IMG/VR virus record: IMGVR_UViG_3300030104_001873
Location: 1 to 27,333 of that record
Source of the DNA: a virus
Length of the DNA: 27,333 nt
Direction: 5' to 3' (one strand)
Each line of letters starts with the position of its first letter. Within the stretch, counting starts at the first letter, position 1. Below are positions 8,961 to 26,463 of this stretch, piece by piece. Position numbers and translations under genes: made by a program. The notes below the pieces were generated by a model. It was given only the letters and a program-made list of their open reading frames with translations, searched no databases and was not told where the DNA came from.

Positions 8961-9338
8961 TTGGAATACGAAGAAATGAAAAAGTTTGACATAGACCTTG
9001 AGTTTGGGAAAATGGGCGAGGACTTTGTCAGAGACCTACAAAATGGTAACAATATGATAGAGGTCAAAACAGAGAGAGATATATGGAAGACTACAGGTAA
9101 TATAGCTGTAGAGATAAGATGCAGTGGTAAGCCTAGTGGTATATCTACTACAGGTTCTAACATATGGATTCACTTACTATCTGATAATGGTAAGATTGTA
9201 GGCGGATATATATTTAGTGTTGATTATTTGAAGCAGAAAATAATAGACCTTAAAAAAGAAGGTAAACTAAAGATGACTATGGGCGGAGACTTTAATGCTA
9301 GTCAAATGGTATTAATACCTAGAACAGAATTATTTTAA
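8961..9338 (+). CDS. PD-(D/E)XK-like small nuclease, 125 aa, TTG start
   Basis: The open frame runs back to ATG 8880, inside the resolvase gene and without a ribosome binding site. GGGAGG at 8946-8951 is spaced nine bases before TTG 8961, which I take as the start. The nuclease-like core is FGKMGEDFVRDL (a helix with Glu), then MIEVKTERD (E-x-K strand), then VEIRCSGKPSGISTT and SNIWIHLL. This is the order of a short PD-(D/E)XK fold of the archaeal resolvase or phage endonuclease sort. The catalytic Asp before the ExK strand is not obvious. It is the last gene of the plus-strand block and ends inside the opposing virion gene. Confidence 0.68.
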   Translation: MEYEEMKKFDIDLEFGKMGEDFVRDLQNGNNMIEVKTERDIWKTTGNIAVEIRCSGKPSGISTTGSNIWIHLLSDNGKIVGGYIFSVDYLKQKIIDLKKEGKLKMTMGGDFNASQMVLIPRTELF

Positions 9339-12300
9339 AGATTTCATTTCTTTTTTTATCATATTAATAACTTCTTGGTCAGAAAACATTTTAGGCGCTA
9401 ACCTGTCAAAATCATTCTTTCTTTCTTTGTAATATGAATCTAAAACTCTTAGGTCGTAAAAGTATTCTTTTGAACGCTCTTTGTCTTTATTTAACCAGTT
9501 TTGCCACATTTTAAATCTTTTAGGTTCATTCTTCATAAACTTAGAAGGATTAGGATTAACAGCTTCTAACTTACCTTGCACAACAATTGCTGCTTGTTTT
9601 AATGCTTCACTAAACCCTTTAGGGTCTTTACCATATTGAGCAGAAGTTCCATCAGCATTAATATTTTCTTTTATTAAATCTGTTGCGATAGCATAAGTCA
9701 TTACTATTGTATGTCTAGTAAATTCTTCTGGTGTACCTTTATAAAATAATGTGTTAAAATCTTTGTAGTATTTACTTCTTCTGGTCATATATTTATTTCC
9801 AGTAGCATCATACTGTTTATCTGGAAACATCTCATCTTCAAAATCGTAATACAATCTTCTCATTCTTTTCATTTTAACAAACTCTTTGTTATCACGACCT
9901 TCAATTAATTTTAATGTTTGTCTATATAAAGCTACAGACCCTTTGGATGCTTCCTGTAAAGATTGGTTCCAAGTTTTTTGACCTCTTGCAAGTGGTACAA
10001 AACTTTCATACATAAGTTGAGCATAATTAAATACAGCAGGCTGTATGGTATATCTAACACCTTCACCTTCATATAAACGTAAGAAGTTACTTAATACCCC
10101 TAGCGCCTCACCTCTCATTAATGTGTGCTTCATCCATGTAAATGTATCAGAATTTTCTTTTGGAGGTTTTTCGTCAAAAACCATATCATAAATTGCCATC
10201 ATAGCCTGGCCAGCAACAAATGGTCCCATTGCTATAGCTGCCATTTTTACCATATTGCCATTTCTACGTGCTAATGAGAAATTATTTATCGTATTTACAG
10301 TTGAAGCATATGCCATTCTTTGGAATAGTAAGAATGATTTAGTCATAGGCTTATCCATCCATTCAGGAGTAAATAAAGATAAAGCAGCACCTTGTGTTTT
10401 AATGTGGGCCATGTTATTCATTTTCTCATAAATATTTTGTAACTGCCTGTCTACTTTAGCCCTTTCATAAGAACTTTTAAACTTTATATTATCTGTTCCA
10501 TTTAGTCCGTACTTTTTTAATAAAGCTCTTTGCTCATCTGTAAGGCTATAAAATTCTTTTAACTTTCTGTTAGCATTAGCTTCTTGTTTTTTAGAACCAC
10601 CAAACTGTAATATTTTAACTAATCTTTGTTGTTCTATTTTGCTCATAGCAACTGACATGTATCTGTTAAAGTTTTCTGAAGGTTTCATACCTCCAAACCA
10701 AAATATCTTATCTAAAAACTTTAAGTTTCTTGTCTCTATAATGTTACGCAAACCGATTTCTGTAGCACCTAACCCTCTAACCTCTCTTCTAAATTCAGAA
10801 CTCATAGTCATTGCCATAGCTTTAAAATAATCTCTCATTCTAAATGCTTGTGTTAAAGCAATTTGCCCTAATATTAAGTTTTTACCACCAGCTGTAGGAA
10901 ATGATAGTTGTGTTTTGGCTAAAAATGTAGATAATGTGCTAAACGCACCACTTACAGCACCACCACTTGGTTCAAACATTCTAGTAACGCCAGCTTGTTT
11001 GTCTACTTGTTTTAATATAAAATCTCCCCACTTAGGATTTTCTCTTTTAACTTTACCAATAAAAGATTTAATATCAGGAACACCGTAACCTTTAAAGTTA
11101 ACATACTCTGGTAACACTTCTGCAGTTGCCATAAATTTTGACATACCAAGAGCATATTTTTTTGCTGTATTTTCGTATGATGTTTCATAAACTTTTACTT
11201 TTTTGCCCTCAAACTCTATAAATTCAGGTAATTTCTCATGTCTAGATTTTAAATATTTACTATGCATTTTAGTGTCTGAGAATCCAAATAAATCAACAAG
11301 ATTAGCATCTACATGCGCTCTAGCGTCTTCTTTCATAGACAGTACTTGCTCATCAGTTGGTTTGTTTGTATTATATTTTTCTTTAGCCAATCTACGTGCA
11401 ACTGGTATAGACTGTTCATCTATAAGTTTATCTTGTGAGTGTCTTAGTATTCTTATAAACTCTGGAGTCGCAACTCTAGAAACATATATATTATCTTTAA
11501 TCCAATTAATTTTATTTTCTTTTACAAATTCTGCATATTCAACTTCAGATAAATTAGCTTTTATTGCTTTTTTAAAAGACTTGTAAACATACTCAGTATA
11601 ATTATTCCAACCAGCTATTAACTTGCCTTCATTTGTAGACATATTAACACCATCTAATCTTTTTTTGTATTTAGGGTTTTTAATAAATTTACCATCTTTT
11701 TTAATAACATAGTCAAATGCAAAAGCTTTTTTAACAAACGCTTTTTCTGATTTTGTTAATAAATCATTTTGTAATCTTTCAATATATCTTTCAGTGTCAG
11801 ACAAATATAATTTATCTCCTGCTTTTGCAAACTTACCTTTACCAAACAACTTTTCCATAGCAACTTCAAAAACAACAAACTCACCAGTATGACCAAGTTC
11901 TATGCTTGCATGGTCTTCAAGTTTTGAGGCAATTTTTTCTGCCTTTCCGCCAAGTTTTCTTAATATAGAATTTGTTGGTAAAGCAAACTTATACGCATCT
12001 CCAAGCATACCATCAAGAGAATCCATAATTTTATTCATTTCGCCCATATTCCCGCTTGACACCAGGCCTTGGTACCTATCTTTTGCTGGCATATTTAGTT
12101 CGCCAACAGCAGATAAATATGATTTTAATTCACGTCTAGAAGCTCCAAATAAAGTTTCTTTCTTAAAGTTTAAAGCTTTCATAATATTTTTAGTTTGCTC
12201 TTCAGGTATGTTCTTAGCATACTTTTCTATCTTAGATATAAGTTTAAACTTTTCTGAAAGTTGAGCTGTTCTTTTCATATCCTTGAATGGCATACTACCT

Positions 12301-15300
12301 AAAACTTTTCTAAATAATTCTAAGTTTAAATCTGTTGTGTTTGCATCTCCAAGAATAAAATCTTTAGGGTTTTCCATGCCAGATTTTTCTGCTAAATATT
12401 CTACAAGCTCTGCTTTTTCTTTTTTAGTTAGTTTTAAATTATTATTATTAAGAGCATCATTAAATTCTTTTTTAACACCTTTTGCATACTCAGCTGTGTT
12501 TTCATACTTATATTGAGCAATGCTAGTAGCTCTTGCGTTAGCATTAAATGCAAATCCTTTATAAACTTTATCGCCTAATATATTACGTATATCATTTTTG
12601 TTTAAATTTTCTTTGCCAAAAAATACTGATTTTACATTAGAATAAAGCCTATTAAGCCAAGCGCCCATTTTCTGCTTTAATGTTGCTGGTTGCTGACGTT
12701 TAAGGCCATATAAAGCTATTTCATCTGCAATAAACTCACTAAAACTTTTATTTGATTTTTTAACATCTTGAGCAAATATTTTTTTAGCTTGATTCCAAAC
12801 TTTATTTAATCTAGTATTTCCAGTTGTTTTAATCATAGATTCTAATCTATGAGCATTTTCATGAAAGAAAGTAAATTTATTAGATTTACCCATTGTAATA
12901 TCAATAACGCCTTCATAAAATCTTCCTGCATAATTAGCATCATCTATTTTTTTAAGTTTTATTCCAGGATTCTTTTTTATTTGATTATCAAGCCATGGAC
13001 TTAATGTTTTTGCTGATTCTGGCGGACCCTCTACAATTTCTTGTAATTGACCCTTTTTTCTAATACCTAACTTTTCTTGAATAATTTTATTTTCTTTTAG
13101 TAGCTGGCTAATTGGGTCATTTTTATAAATTGTTTTTATTCTAGTTTTATCTTGCCTTAAATAAGCACTTATATCTTGGTCTAATATTTTAACTTCACCA
13201 GCTTTTGTTCTTAATAAATTTCTATTAAGATTGTAATCAATATAATCCTTACCAAATACCTCCATAGCAATTTTCTTTTTAGCTGCCATTTTATCAATTT
13301 TAAAATCTTTATTAAAAATAGGAGTTTTTTTATTTCCAGCAAAATTTAATATTTCTTTAGCTAAAGCTTCTGGAATAGGTATAGCATTAGGTTTGGTTTG
13401 ACCTTTTGCTTTTTTAGCAATAACAGGGACCCCTTTTGCAACCCCAAAATCAATGTGCCAACCTTCTTTAGGATGCTCTCTAATATTTTTGATTGTCATC
13501 TTATTTAATTCTTGAGGTCTTATACCATATTTAATTAATTTTGCTAATAATTGAGCTTCAGGTTTTTTTTGTTTATTAACAACTTTGTTAATTGATTCAT
13601 CTACTTTGTTTAGCAATTTAGTGTCAGCAAACTCTGGCCCAGTCAATCTTTTTTCAGCAGCTATATTAACTTCAGAATAACTAATTAAATTTTTAACACT
13701 TAATCCGTCAGGATGAAACTTTTTATGAACATACTCATAAAATTTTGATAATGGCGCAACATCAGATGGCCCAAGTTTATTTTTTGTAGGGCTAGCCATA
13801 ACAACATCAATTAAATAATCATTAATATCCTGAACTGATGAGTCAGATAATTTTTTATTTTTTGCTTTATGAAGGTAATCTACGTATTTTGCTGCCTGTG
13901 TGCTATAAGACTTTCCTCTTTTAGTTTCAATTCCAAAACCTATAACAGCTTCAATGTCAGCTTTTGAGCCAGTGACACTATCTACTTTTACATTAGGCAT
14001 TTGTTTTTCTTTTTTTATTGCAAAACTTTGATTAGCAGGGTCTTTTATAAGCTCTTTTACTCTAAAACTTTCAGATTTTTTATCGTAACCTATTCCTCTT
14101 TTTTCTATCTCTTCACCAAAAACTTTTCTAATTTGTTCTGTTACTGGCGCTTGTTTTGTTTGGACTGGTTTAGTTACACCTTCTTCAACAAAACCTTCTT
14201 TCTTAGCAGCCATTTCTTCAGCTTGTGATTTAACTATTCTTTCTTCTGCTGGTCTAGGTCTACCTTTGTCGTCAACAAGTTTTGATTCTCTTGTTAGTGT
14301 CTTAGGAGTGTACCCTGGGTCTGCTTTAGTTAATTCATTCCTTAGTCCTGTTAACTGTTCATTTGTGACATTGAATGCATCTTCATAAACTTTATGCTCA
14401 GACTTTAAAGACTCTTTATAAACTTTAAACTCTGCGTCTGTAATTTTTTTATTACCTTTACTTAAAGATATTTCGTCTAAAACCTGCCTAAACAAAGCAT
14501 CATCATCAAGCATCATTTTAAGATGACCTTGCTCTACTAGTTTTACAGACAGTAAATGTTGTTGTGCTGCATCAATTTCTGTTTGAGTTAATTTTTCACC
14601 TTTTGCTACTTTTTTAAGAACATCGTTAACTTTTTTCTGTTCTTTTAAAAATTTAGCTGAACCCTCTGCTGTTGCATAATCACTTTGTTTTATTTTAACA
14701 GTCTCTTTAACAAGTTCTGGGTCTATAGAAAAACCTGCCTCTGTCATTGTTTTTTCTACATTTTCTGCACTTTTAACAAGCTTTGCGGCTTCCCTTTTGT
14801 GTATTTCCATTACCTGATTAGCAATATTAGCAGTTTCGTCAATACCTCTTAGCTTGTTACTAATTTTAACAGTTCCTGCCATAGCTCCTACAATAATAGT
14901 GTTTTGAATTAAAGAGCGCCCAAACCCTTCTTCAAAAATACCAGGAACGTCCTCATATACTTCTACACCAGCTAACTTCCCTAAACCTTTATAAAATGTA
15001 GGCATAGCAGAAAATGCAAGAGCTTCTACACCAACTTGTGCTGGAAAACCTTGTAGTACTCGACTTGTTAAATCTAAAGTTGCTTTATTGTTTTTGGCTG
15101 CTAACTTTTTAAGGGCGTACTGACTTCCTAAATAACCTTTAGCAACCGCACCTGCTGGGACTCCAAGCAAAAAACTTTCACCAAAACCTTTTGCGCCATC
15201 AAGTAAAGTTTTACTTATATCTACATTTCCAGTCTCTTTTCTTTGTTTTGCTGCTGAGTGTACAGCAGAATGAGAAGCTCCTAGTGTACCTAAGCCTATA

Positions 15301-15989
15301 CCAGTACCTAACCCTTCAGTAACCATAGCTGTTTTTATAGCTGAATTATTAACAGCTTTTTCAAAAGCTTTCTGTCCGCCTTTTTTCATAGCATTATTTT
15401 TAAAGGCAAGTAATCCAGCATCTTTAAGGCCCTTGAACGCTCCCTTTGTAACCGCCTTGCCAATTAAACCGCCAGAAAATAAAGCTGCTACTTCTGCAGC
15501 ATTAAACATTCCTAACATAAATGAACCAGCCTCACCAAGCAATCCCGCATCATAATTTTCTACTTCATATTTTGGTTTACCATAAATAGCTTGATAAGCC
15601 ATACCAGCTATTGATTCATTGTAAGATTTTTCAAAAAAGTCAGCTGATATACCTAAAGAAGATATACCGTCTGGAAATGTTTGAGCTAAAGCTCCTGACA
15701 AGCTAAAATCTGTAGCTAAATCTGCGAGCATACCTTTTAATCCGTTAATTTTTTCAGGCTCTGCATTGAGATTAGCCAGATAACTAGAGTCTCCTTCTAC
15801 AGGCTTATTTGTATAACCAGCAGAATGTTCTTGAGGTAATGGGGTAAGAGGTTTGTAAGGTTTTAAATATTCACCAGTTTTTGAATTTAAATATTCACTA
15901 GCTAAATTATACAGCTCTTCTTCATCTTGTGTATTAGGAGCAATATTTGCTTTAAACCATTTTAAATAATCGTCTCTATTATTTATCAT
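9330..15989 (-). CDS. Giant internal virion / polyvalent ejection protein with recombinase and metallopeptidase domains
   Basis: 2219 aa, the last minus-strand gene. Residues 135-380 are Gly/Ala-rich and hydrophobic in repeated stretches (GEAGSFMLGMFNAAEVAALF, GTGIGLGTLG, SLIQNTIIVGAMAG), like membrane-active ejection proteins. Residues about 385-600 are charged and helical. Residues about 690-960 read as a tyrosine recombinase (R824, R927, Y955). H1043-E-N-A-H1047 plus E1085-x3-D1089 is zincin-like. The C-terminal third contains further helical regions and a hydrophobic segment at 1913-1938 (MVKMAAIAMGPFVAGQAMMA). Large polyvalent proteins of phages combine enzyme domains in one injected chain; this assignment is inferred from architecture and position after three other internal virion proteins. 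The start has no visible Shine-Dalgarno and follows the upstream stop by six bases. Confidence 0.82.
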   Translation of the reverse strand: MINNRDDYLKWFKANIAPNTQDEEELYNLASEYLNSKTGEYLKPYKPLTPLPQEHSAGYTNKPVEGDSSYLANLNAEPEKINGLKGMLADLATDFSLSGALAQTFPDGISSLGISADFFEKSYNESIAGMAYQAIYGKPKYEVENYDAGLLGEAGSFMLGMFNAAEVAALFSGGLIGKAVTKGAFKGLKDAGLLAFKNNAMKKGGQKAFEKAVNNSAIKTAMVTEGLGTGIGLGTLGASHSAVHSAAKQRKETGNVDISKTLLDGAKGFGESFLLGVPAGAVAKGYLGSQYALKKLAAKNNKATLDLTSRVLQGFPAQVGVEALAFSAMPTFYKGLGKLAGVEVYEDVPGIFEEGFGRSLIQNTIIVGAMAGTVKISNKLRGIDETANIANQVMEIHKREAAKLVKSAENVEKTMTEAGFSIDPELVKETVKIKQSDYATAEGSAKFLKEQKKVNDVLKKVAKGEKLTQTEIDAAQQHLLSVKLVEQGHLKMMLDDDALFRQVLDEISLSKGNKKITDAEFKVYKESLKSEHKVYEDAFNVTNEQLTGLRNELTKADPGYTPKTLTRESKLVDDKGRPRPAEERIVKSQAEEMAAKKEGFVEEGVTKPVQTKQAPVTEQIRKVFGEEIEKRGIGYDKKSESFRVKELIKDPANQSFAIKKEKQMPNVKVDSVTGSKADIEAVIGFGIETKRGKSYSTQAAKYVDYLHKAKNKKLSDSSVQDINDYLIDVVMASPTKNKLGPSDVAPLSKFYEYVHKKFHPDGLSVKNLISYSEVNIAAEKRLTGPEFADTKLLNKVDESINKVVNKQKKPEAQLLAKLIKYGIRPQELNKMTIKNIREHPKEGWHIDFGVAKGVPVIAKKAKGQTKPNAIPIPEALAKEILNFAGNKKTPIFNKDFKIDKMAAKKKIAMEVFGKDYIDYNLNRNLLRTKAGEVKILDQDISAYLRQDKTRIKTIYKNDPISQLLKENKIIQEKLGIRKKGQLQEIVEGPPESAKTLSPWLDNQIKKNPGIKLKKIDDANYAGRFYEGVIDITMGKSNKFTFFHENAHRLESMIKTTGNTRLNKVWNQAKKIFAQDVKKSNKSFSEFIADEIALYGLKRQQPATLKQKMGAWLNRLYSNVKSVFFGKENLNKNDIRNILGDKVYKGFAFNANARATSIAQYKYENTAEYAKGVKKEFNDALNNNNLKLTKKEKAELVEYLAEKSGMENPKDFILGDANTTDLNLELFRKVLGSMPFKDMKRTAQLSEKFKLISKIEKYAKNIPEEQTKNIMKALNFKKETLFGASRRELKSYLSAVGELNMPAKDRYQGLVSSGNMGEMNKIMDSLDGMLGDAYKFALPTNSILRKLGGKAEKIASKLEDHASIELGHTGEFVVFEVAMEKLFGKGKFAKAGDKLYLSDTERYIERLQNDLLTKSEKAFVKKAFAFDYVIKKDGKFIKNPKYKKRLDGVNMSTNEGKLIAGWNNYTEYVYKSFKKAIKANLSEVEYAEFVKENKINWIKDNIYVSRVATPEFIRILRHSQDKLIDEQSIPVARRLAKEKYNTNKPTDEQVLSMKEDARAHVDANLVDLFGFSDTKMHSKYLKSRHEKLPEFIEFEGKKVKVYETSYENTAKKYALGMSKFMATAEVLPEYVNFKGYGVPDIKSFIGKVKRENPKWGDFILKQVDKQAGVTRMFEPSGGAVSGAFSTLSTFLAKTQLSFPTAGGKNLILGQIALTQAFRMRDYFKAMAMTMSSEFRREVRGLGATEIGLRNIIETRNLKFLDKIFWFGGMKPSENFNRYMSVAMSKIEQQRLVKILQFGGSKKQEANANRKLKEFYSLTDEQRALLKKYGLNGTDNIKFKSSYERAKVDRQLQNIYEKMNNMAHIKTQGAALSLFTPEWMDKPMTKSFLLFQRMAYASTVNTINNFSLARRNGNMVKMAAIAMGPFVAGQAMMAIYDMVFDEKPPKENSDTFTWMKHTLMRGEALGVLSNFLRLYEGEGVRYTIQPAVFNYAQLMYESFVPLARGQKTWNQSLQEASKGSVALYRQTLKLIEGRDNKEFVKMKRMRRLYYDFEDEMFPDKQYDATGNKYMTRRSKYYKDFNTLFYKGTPEEFTRHTIVMTYAIATDLIKENINADGTSAQYGKDPKGFSEALKQAAIVVQGKLEAVNPNPSKFMKNEPKRFKMWQNWLNKDKERSKEYFYDLRVLDSYYKERKNDFDRLAPKMFSDQEVINMIKKEMKSLK
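12690..12947 (-). other. Zincin-like metallopeptidase motif inside the giant protein (residues 1015-1100)
   Basis: FFHENAHRLES places an HExxH helix at His1043-Glu1044-x2-His1047. Thirty-eight residues after the second His, SEFIADEIALYG gives Glu1085-x3-Asp1089, the gluzincin-type third ligand with following Asp. Before it, YEGVIDITMGKSNKFT looks like the edge strand that precedes the active-site helix. A zinc-dependent peptidase is therefore plausible; phage polyvalent proteins are known to carry zincin domains. Confidence 0.7.
13110..13922 (-). other. Tyrosine-recombinase-like module inside the giant protein (residues 690-960)
   Basis: Residues 690-775 follow the core-binding domain pattern (YSTQAAKYVDYLHK, then DINDYLIDVV, then LSKFYEYVHK). 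The catalytic part has box I at YGIRPQELNKMTIKNI (Arg824), a Lys-bearing hairpin (AKKAKGQTKPNAIPIP, candidates K859-K862), box II at NLLRTKAGEV (Arg927, with Asn924 where His is usual), and LRQDKTRIKTIY ending in Tyr955. The last 12 positions match LGHxxxxTTxxY in spacing, with Gln946 replacing the second His. R-to-R distance is 103 (99 in XerD) and R-to-Y is 28 (32 in XerD). Two Arg, Lys and Tyr are kept; both His are replaced. Confidence 0.72.
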
Positions 15990-15995
15990 AATTAA

Positions 15996-17699
15996 TTATT
16001 TATTAGCAAAATAATTTTGCACTAATTCAGCATTTGATTTGCCTGTTTTTATTTGTTCTACGTTCATATCGCTAGCTATAGTGTTAAACCAAACATTTAT
16101 ATCTGTTGTATCAAGTAAATTTTCTTTTTTAGCAAGACTGTCTTGTAAATTTTTTATCTGTAAAGATAATTTATTTTTTTGAATTTGTAAAGATTTTTTG
16201 TTAAAAGAAGTCATTTGATTCATTTCTCTTGTTCTATCTTTTATATTTTTTTTAGTAATAGCAATTTCATTTTTTAACTTGTCTTGCCATTTTTTAAACT
16301 GTGGTTTTGCTTGCTTTAGTTGACTTTCATTTAAATTTGTATCTATTGTTTCGCCACCTGCTGGGGCAGTAACTTTGTTGTAAAAAGTATCAAAATCATT
16401 ATTGTATTCATTTTTTTGTTCTGCTGTGTAAGTATTCCACTCCTTACGTATTCTTTGCTTTTCTTCAGATTCTTCAGTTGTTTCTACGTTTAATGGCTCT
16501 ACACCTTGATTAGCTAAAGAATCCTCTGTTGTTTTTGATATTTGATTACCATCATCTAAGTTTTCATTATTATTATTTCCATCTTTATTAGCATTTTCAA
16601 ACATACTAACATCAATTGGTTCAAAATATCTAAAGCCCCAACCTTTTGCTTCTTTACTTACTATAAGTCTTTCGCCCTCTAGTGCAGTTTTTTGTTGATT
16701 TAAATTTTTAATTAATTCTTCTGGACTTAAATTTATATTAGTCATATACTGTGTAGCTTGCTCATAAGCTTCGTCTATATCTGTACTTATAGGCACATCA
16801 GGGTATAACTGTCCAAAACTACTTACAAAAGTTTGTTTATTTTCATTATTAAGAACTAGTTCAGTATAATTATTTTTATTTTTTAAAGCATCTGTATTTA
16901 TTTGATTTATTGTACTGTTTATGCTTTTTATTTTAACATCATAATCTTTTTTAAATGATTGAAACTCTTTATCTCTTTGATTTTTTCTTTGGTTATAAGA
17001 ATCTCTATCTCCAGTCATAACAAATATAGCCTCTTCAGGTAATAACTCATTGTCGTAAACTGAAGCTTGTATAAAAACATTTTTAGAACTTGAGTAATTA
17101 TCTACATCTACAATAAATTCTGAAGCAGACATTTGTTTGCCACCAAAGCCTGTAAATTTCATATTTTTATTATTAGACCCTTCTGTAAGTAATTTAAATC
17201 TTTTAATTTTAGCTAAATTATTCATTGTTTCTTCAAAAGCTGAATCTAATTCATTAGTCTGGTTGTAATAATTAACTATCTCTTCTTTATTTAATTGTGT
17301 AAATGTTTTTCCATCTATAAGAGGTTGAGTTACAAATGTAGCAATTTCATTTCCAAGGCTTTGTATTTCATTTATTTGAGATAATCTAGAGTTTCCTGAA
17401 CTTTTTGCAGCCTGATAAAATGATTGAGTTGAAGCGCTAAGATTAGAAGTGTCAATATTCTCCATAAGACTTAAAGCATGATTAATTTCAGCTCCACTAG
17501 AAGCTTTATTTATTAATTCGTTTGCTAAAGAGCCGACACCTAAAGCGTCTTGTTCTCGTTTTACTTGACGTCTCTCTTGAGCTTGTTGAAAAGCCCCACC
17601 TACCTTTAAAGCTAAATCAACAGTTTGAACTAGCCTATCCATTGGGTCTTTACCTAAATTTAAATCTACATTTGCTCCTGCGGGTAATATTTTAGCCAT
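15996..17699 (-). CDS. Internal virion protein, coiled-coil rich, 567 aa
   Basis: ATG at 17699 follows TAGGAAATTAT. The N-terminus (MAKILPAGANVDLNLGKDPM, then VDLALKVGGAFQQAQERRQV) and the helix-rich middle are typical of phage internal virion proteins that line up behind the portal. Residues about 455-530 form a long coiled coil (KKWQDKLKNEIAITKKNIKD through KLSLQIKNLQDSLAKKENLL). The region 370-420 is Asn/Glu-rich and probably disordered. No enzyme motif is seen. It lies six bases upstream of the giant protein, and the two probably function in the same ejection complex (inference). Confidence 0.75.
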   Translation of the reverse strand: MAKILPAGANVDLNLGKDPMDRLVQTVDLALKVGGAFQQAQERRQVKREQDALGVGSLANELINKASSGAEINHALSLMENIDTSNLSASTQSFYQAAKSSGNSRLSQINEIQSLGNEIATFVTQPLIDGKTFTQLNKEEIVNYYNQTNELDSAFEETMNNLAKIKRFKLLTEGSNNKNMKFTGFGGKQMSASEFIVDVDNYSSSKNVFIQASVYDNELLPEEAIFVMTGDRDSYNQRKNQRDKEFQSFKKDYDVKIKSINSTINQINTDALKNKNNYTELVLNNENKQTFVSSFGQLYPDVPISTDIDEAYEQATQYMTNINLSPEELIKNLNQQKTALEGERLIVSKEAKGWGFRYFEPIDVSMFENANKDGNNNNENLDDGNQISKTTEDSLANQGVEPLNVETTEESEEKQRIRKEWNTYTAEQKNEYNNDFDTFYNKVTAPAGGETIDTNLNESQLKQAKPQFKKWQDKLKNEIAITKKNIKDRTREMNQMTSFNKKSLQIQKNKLSLQIKNLQDSLAKKENLLDTTDINVWFNTIASDMNVEQIKTGKSNAELVQNYFANK

Positions 17700-25492: not shown

Positions 25493-25999
25493 CTATGCTG
25501 ATGCAATAAATATTTCTAAATCTACTGCTACTGAGCCACTTTCATTTAATGCTCTAATATCTGTAATAGCATCTAATGTTGGGCTATCTAAATCACCTGC
25601 TGCAGCATCAAATGCAGCATCAAAAGTGTTTAATATAAAAGATTTGCCCTCTTCTAATAAAAGCCATGCACATTCATCATCTGTAGCGTCAGAATTATTA
25701 TCTCTTACTATTTGAAGTTTTACACCTTCACTTGCTGCAGAATTTAAATTTGTTATTCTTAAATATTTCATATCACCAACTATAAACTTTCCTGCTGCAA
25801 CTGCTGTACCAGTATCTCCAGTTGTTTCTAATAATGTTATTGTACCGTCTCCACTTACAGGTACAGTTAATATTCTTTTAAAAACTTCACCTATAGAAGA
25901 AACTGTTGTAGTAGTTGTGCCACCTTGGTTTTTTCCATTTAAGTTAATAGACTCATTTATGGTTACAGTTAAGGTTGATGCTGTTAATGTACTTGCCAT
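25493..25999 (-). CDS. Small virion protein, paralogue B, 168 aa
   Basis: Shares its opening (MASTLTASTLTVTINESINL, then NGKNQGG) and its last residues (VDLEIFIASA) with the gene just upstream; the middle (SIGEVFKRILTVPVSGDGTI, YLRITN, LEEGKSFIL) also aligns. It is a beta-rich, Ser/Thr/Ala-rich, acidic protein without Lys/Arg clusters. Tandem duplicates of this kind are often decoration, fibre-base or tropism proteins, but the role is not known. AGGAGTAAAC upstream supports the ATG at 25999. Confidence 0.75.
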   Translation of the reverse strand: MASTLTASTLTVTINESINLNGKNQGGTTTTTVSSIGEVFKRILTVPVSGDGTITLLETTGDTGTAVAAGKFIVGDMKYLRITNLNSAASEGVKLQIVRDNNSDATDDECAWLLLEEGKSFILNTFDAAFDAAAGDLDSPTLDAITDIRALNESGSVAVDLEIFIASA

Positions 26000-26007
26000 G
26001 TTTACTC

Positions 26008-26463
26008 CTAAGCTGAAGCTATGAAAGCTTCTAAATCTACATCAGCACTATTTGCTGTTGCTTTTATTCCTGTTAAATCTTCTAATGTTGCGCCTGATAT
26101 ATCTCCATAATCTACAACTCCAGTGCTAGTGCTACTTACAATTAAATAACTTGCTCCAGGGTCTAAGCGTACACTAAAATCTGTACTATTAGCACCTTCT
26201 ATATTTAATGTGACATAATTACTATCATCTTTATTTGTAAGCCTAATATATCTTATTCCTGCAGCAACATAAATTCCACTACTAACTGCAGCGCCAAAAG
26301 AGCAAACAGTTACTTCCGAAGTAGGTATTGTTACAATTCGATTTGTAACTTCATTTATAGAGCCTATAGATAAAGTATTAGTAGCACCCTGATTCTTACC
26401 ATTTAAATTGATAGATTCTGATATAGAAACTGTCATTGTTGCGGCTGTTACTGTACTTGCCAT
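26008..26463 (-). CDS. Small virion protein, paralogue A, 151 aa
   Basis: ATG 26463 follows TAGGAGTAAAAA. The sequence begins MASTVTAATMTVSISESINL, then NGKNQGA, and ends VDLEAFIASA, closely matching paralogue B at both ends. It is shorter by 17 residues, mainly in the central loops (SEVTVCSFGAAVSSGIYVAA versus a longer stretch in B). It is predicted all-beta. I recall similar proteins in marine phage genomes without a defined function. The two genes are eight bases apart. Confidence 0.75.
   Translation of the reverse strand: MASTVTAATMTVSISESINLNGKNQGATNTLSIGSINEVTNRIVTIPTSEVTVCSFGAAVSSGIYVAAGIRYIRLTNKDDSNYVTLNIEGANSTDFSVRLDPGASYLIVSSTSTGVVDYGDISGATLEDLTGIKATANSADVDLEAFIASA

Follow-up and report, generated by a model that had tools for sequence, protein, structure and literature searches.

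The window analysed here is the whole 27,333-base record of an uncultured virus. Its late operon lies on the minus strand and ends in one open frame for a giant protein of 2219 aa (9330..15989, minus strand), with the gene for a 567-aa late protein directly upstream (15996..17699, minus strand). The early genes are on the opposite strand, facing the late operon, and encode a Cas4-like exonuclease, a Sak annealing protein, an HNH endonuclease, a DnaB-like helicase and a RuvC-like resolvase. No lysogeny genes were recognised in the window, and a PHROG search gave no match telling the virion function of its late proteins. In the relative L034 the operon starts with the terminase, portal and major head protein genes, and from this order we infer that the 2219-aa product is an internal virion protein. 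Synteny together with domain content suggests that it is probably a giant 'polyvalent' protein ejected with the genome. Two adjoining late genes (25493-25999 and 26008-26463) have products of 168 and 151 aa that resemble each other and begin with a common, SESINLNGKNQG-like N-terminus, and this pair is likely a tandem duplication.

In the middle of the 2219-aa frame, residues 670-976 (13062..13982, minus strand) were delimited as a tyrosine-recombinase-fold module by AlphaFold2 modelling, Foldseek, VIA-align and a family profile. The first-pass annotation had described such a module at residues 690-960 (13110-13922), and its motifs were indeed present there in the open frame. As modelled, the module is composed of a core-binding and a catalytic domain, and this fold assignment is well supported. 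The SAM-like core-binding subdomain covers residues ~670-785 (13635..13982, minus strand); it was helical in the model, and relatives matched Pfam Phage_int_SAM_1 and SAM_4 weakly (best 0.0083 and 0.0053). The catalytic subdomain, residues ~787-960 (13110..13631, minus strand), was placed by VIA-align to the P2 and HP1 integrases.

Two AlphaFold2 models of the domain were obtained, with pLDDT of 63.8 and 71.5; confidence is moderate, and lowest at the Lys and Tyr loops, which makes the modelled active-site geometry unreliable. In Foldseek searches with both models the leading matches were superfamily members only, with E-values near 5e-3. Every row listed by VIA-align was likewise a superfamily member. 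An archaeal Xer aligned across both domains (model 5-307) with Z 12.1 and an rmsd of 12.1 A, which we read as reflecting two domains turned against each other in the model, and the P2 and HP1 integrases matched the catalytic domain with Z 10.7 at 3.2-3.4 A over 132-137 residues. Type IB topoisomerases were also among the matches (Z 6.8-8.6), with Xer and phage integrases scoring higher.

Sequence profiles pointed to the same superfamily. When the profile of seven family members was searched against PDB sequences, an archaeal Xer recombinase came out at 8.7e-7, in an alignment that covers the stretch from LGH to Tyr; the next match, at 0.045, was unrelated. Pfam Phage_integrase (PF00589) was detected inside the giant frame of the relative P0002 (1.6e-7 per genome, 2.2e-5 on the segment) and at the same place in L067 (1.8e-5), L069 (9.8e-5) and P0006 (1.3e-3), all four matches lying below the curated cut-off of 27.1 bits, the best at 25.3 bits. 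The window domain alone matched neither PF00589 nor any other relevant Pfam family, and nothing relevant in the PDB by single-sequence search. Profile-profile comparison with a three-sequence alignment of XerD, Cre and lambda Int aligned no more than 22 columns locally, at box I; we consider that reference alignment too poor for the result to count for or against. No clear lox/dif-like arms or other recombination site were found within the window. The tyrosine-recombinase identity put forward in the first-pass annotation holds on fold comparison, the family profile against PDB sequences, Pfam matches in relatives and residue conservation.

The two arginines and the tyrosine required for the superfamily were found in the expected order: R824 in box I (GIRPQEL at 822; 13518..13520, minus strand), R923 in box II (NLNR; 13221..13223, minus strand) and Y955, the candidate nucleophile (LRQDKTRIKTIY at 944; 13125..13127, minus strand). 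R824 and Y955 are the residues named in the first-pass annotation. Its box II arginine, Arg927, was in the wrong register, as residue 927 is Asn in P0003, whereas all ten family members have the Arg at 923. When these ten were aligned with L-INS-i, R824 and R923 were the only two invariant columns. In the seven-member alignment, nine of 307 columns were invariant, R824, R923 and Y955 among them; the chance that all three named columns fall within nine of 307 is 1.8e-5. The module is conserved over a diverse group of phages. The family alignments are uncertain outside the core. The pattern of box I, G[IVLMF]Rxx[ED], followed 110-160 residues on by L[RG][HQ]x7[IV]Y, was met in none of 20000 shuffles of the protein, a rough guide only, as the pattern was devised after the sequence had been seen.

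The remaining active-site positions were more variable. The probable hairpin lysine is K862 (13404..13406, minus strand), within the K859-K862 stretch named in the first-pass annotation; it or a neighbouring residue was placed there by eye in the alignment, in a low-confidence loop with pLDDT below 50. Replacement of both histidines had also been noted in the window copy. This was right for Q946 (LRQ; 13152..13154, minus strand) at the second His/Trp position, nine residues before the Tyr; the first position is N920 (13230..13232, minus strand) rather than Asn924, because the box II arginine is R923. The box II His, three residues before the second arginine, is absent from nearly all members and is a Lys in P0002 and L069. 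At the second position His is present in P0003 and P0005 (both LRH), L060, L065 and L067, and most others have LGH or MGH, so that Q946 is unique to the window copy among its nearest relatives. The window copy therefore retains both arginines, the probable lysine and the tyrosine but neither His, having Asn at the first of these positions and Gln at the second, and it may be weakened by this double replacement.

Directly after the recombinase-fold module lies a putative zincin-like metallopeptidase region (residues ~990-1110; 12660..13022, minus strand), recognised by conservation of an HExxH motif, here HENAH (residues 1043-1047; 12849-12863, minus strand). HExxH was present in 11 fused-type proteins and missing from P0002, and a downstream Glu was also invariant in a six-member alignment. 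When a profile of the HExxH region was run against the PDB, nothing matched. According to Iyer et al. 2017 (PMC5512222), no domain is more frequent in injected polyvalent proteins than the zincin-like metallopeptidase, which is proposed to process them. A polyvalent protein combines at least two enzyme-like domains in a single large phage polypeptide; here these are the recombinase-fold module and the putative HExxH...E peptidase. Ejection of the product would fit both the gene order and this adjacent motif.

Relatives were reached first through a tail gene and DnaB and later by way of stretches conserved in the C-terminal part. Viral contigs scanned with the single sequence of either the domain or the entire protein gave no relatives, a scan with a three-member domain alignment recovered the P0003 record only, and none were found among 50,697 phage records. 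Two main kinds were recognised. Fused giants of 2219-2495 aa comprise the window protein (P0001) and P0002, P0003, P0006, L057, L060, L065, L067 and L069, the homologues in relatives having 2233-2495 aa; P0005, L066 and L068 are partial members of this kind. The domain equivalent to the window's 670-976 spans residues 656-976 in L067 and 690-1006 in P0003. The second kind consists of split pairs of ~1200 and ~1020 aa. Two records from different samples, L060 and L061, carry seemingly the same 2361-aa giant protein at identical coordinates. A 1688-aa giant in L062 (4020-9086; partial copies in L063 and L064) keeps the C-terminal part and has no HExxH, and it does not clearly match the profile of the recombinase domain.

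In a midpoint-rooted tree of the C-terminal parts, all split-type proteins formed one clade (support 1.0) nested among the fused proteins, and the group of this clade with L066, L067 and L069 was supported at 0.978. Because of this nesting, the fused form looks older than the split form. The split-type ~1200-aa proteins perhaps carry a degenerate recombinase domain, which profile searches did not confirm. In residues 680-974 of L028 (1196 aa) and the equivalents in L029-L033, L041, L044 and L047, an invariant R, a GLGH-type stretch and a Tyr were seen at matching relative positions, with GLTH in place of that stretch in L031.

The window and the record holding L010 and L029 share six early genes at 98.6-100% identity and one identical (100%) tail gene, whereas the ejection locus (window 9330-17699) is only ~23% identical and its giant is split in two in L010/L029. 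Judged from this contrast in identity, the whole ejection module, including the 567-aa gene, has been exchanged. In that record the 567-aa protein finds only local similarity, despite the near-identical early genes.

We propose that the virion delivers the recombinase-fold domain and that the domain acts on the phage DNA as it arrives, possibly by holding its ends or joining them, with catalytic activity somewhere in the family. The proposal draws on the position in a late operon, the head genes of a relative's operon, the HExxH neighbour and the lack of any other Phage_integrase match or stand-alone integrase in 33 records, some of which may be fragments. A DNA-end role has a precedent in gp44 of phage 80alpha, which also has a Sak protein as in the window (PMC7290940). 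The 2219-aa protein would enter the cell together with the DNA, and its peptidase may cut the module loose. Once inside, the module would bind the incoming DNA and align its ends; members with an intact R-K-R-H-Y set could then cut and rejoin strands, for example circularising the genome, before phage gene expression. We hold the general proposal tentatively, as a little short of an even chance. Its strongest form, a tailed-phage lineage that delivers an active tyrosine recombinase in its ejection protein, frees it by the peptidase and joins the genome ends on entry before any gene is expressed, is conceivable and on balance unlikely.

The recombinase may instead be retired, its fold serving the ejection protein only for DNA binding or scaffolding and cleaving no strands, as in MrpR, YopR, SroF or Ndc10. 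We regard this as a real possibility, less likely than the proposal above. Both histidines are replaced in the window copy, split-type relatives may carry a version in which most members have no box I Arg, and MrpR, YopR, SroF and Ndc10 were among the fold matches. MrpR, YopR and SroF are recombinase-fold phage proteins which, going by their entry titles, serve as DNA-binding regulators; unlike the window module they are stand-alone, and they are not virion proteins. DNA binding alone, however, would not need both arginines and the tyrosine, which stay unchanged even where identity to the window domain is only 18-28%, nor the second His, which most members keep.

A packaging or assembly role within the virion, like that of baculovirus VLF-1, is improbable. 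VLF-1 is a virion structural component in which mutation of the conserved Tyr gives non-infectious virus (PMC3649998), and one VLF-1 was recovered as a weaker viral fold match (E 0.96). VLF-1 itself is stand-alone, however, and the adjacent metallopeptidase motif and giant-protein architecture point to injected proteins. Still less likely is a type IB topoisomerase-like swivel relaxing the entering DNA with no site specificity: these enzymes have the same catalytic fold and were among the matches, but a SAM-like core-binding domain precedes the catalytic domain here, as in recombinases, and Xer and phage integrases scored higher. Integration of the phage into its host's chromosome, which the first-pass annotation had also suggested, is the least probable reading and found no support. 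The module does resemble phage integrases as a family, but a pattern-based scan of 84,980 bacterial and archaeal genomes, which can miss distant copies, found nothing related to the protein's C-terminal part, no stand-alone integrase was seen in the 33 records, and the window has no recognised lysogeny genes.

The literature searched contained no paper naming both tyrosine recombinase and ejection protein, and none naming internal virion protein together with an integrase domain. Internal virion protein and tyrosine recombinase occur together in one paper, on a Paraburkholderia prophage. Polyvalent protein and tyrosine recombinase occur together in three, among them PMC7824862, where the two terms are used separately. 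We found in this literature no earlier report of a recombinase-fold module in a giant ejection protein of a tailed phage. The finding would extend the injected multidomain phage proteins by a further class of domain, and it bears on a question common to many phages, namely how the entering genome is kept safe and made circular while the phage has yet to produce enzymes of its own.

Compared with known tyrosine recombinases (Xer, Cre and the P2 and HP1 integrases), the module has the same core-binding and catalytic fold and the same R...R...Y order, with LGH in most of the window's relatives. Those enzymes are stand-alone, the named viral fold matches called integrase having 252-543 aa, whereas the present module is embedded centrally in a late protein of 2219 aa; active members have R-K-H-R-H/W-Y, whereas the window copy lacks both histidines. 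The polyvalent proteins of Iyer et al. 2017 (PMC5512222), including the N4-type virion RNA polymerase, are likewise giant and multidomain, with an enzyme-like module beside HExxH, and the main text of that paper names neither a recombinase nor an integrase. VLF-1 of baculoviruses and bracoviruses is also a virion component of the tyrosine-recombinase family, a nucleocapsid component needed for assembly (PMC3649998), but it is a stand-alone protein of insect viruses and not a giant ejected protein like the candidate in the window. The ejected gp44 of 80alpha is proposed to bind the genome ends and to aid circularisation, as a non-specific DNA end-binding helper of a recombinase that is not known for this phage (PMC7290940). 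Unlike gp44, which is not described as being a recombinase itself, a recombinase-fold module within an ejected protein would be a direct candidate for the early circularisation or protection of the genome.
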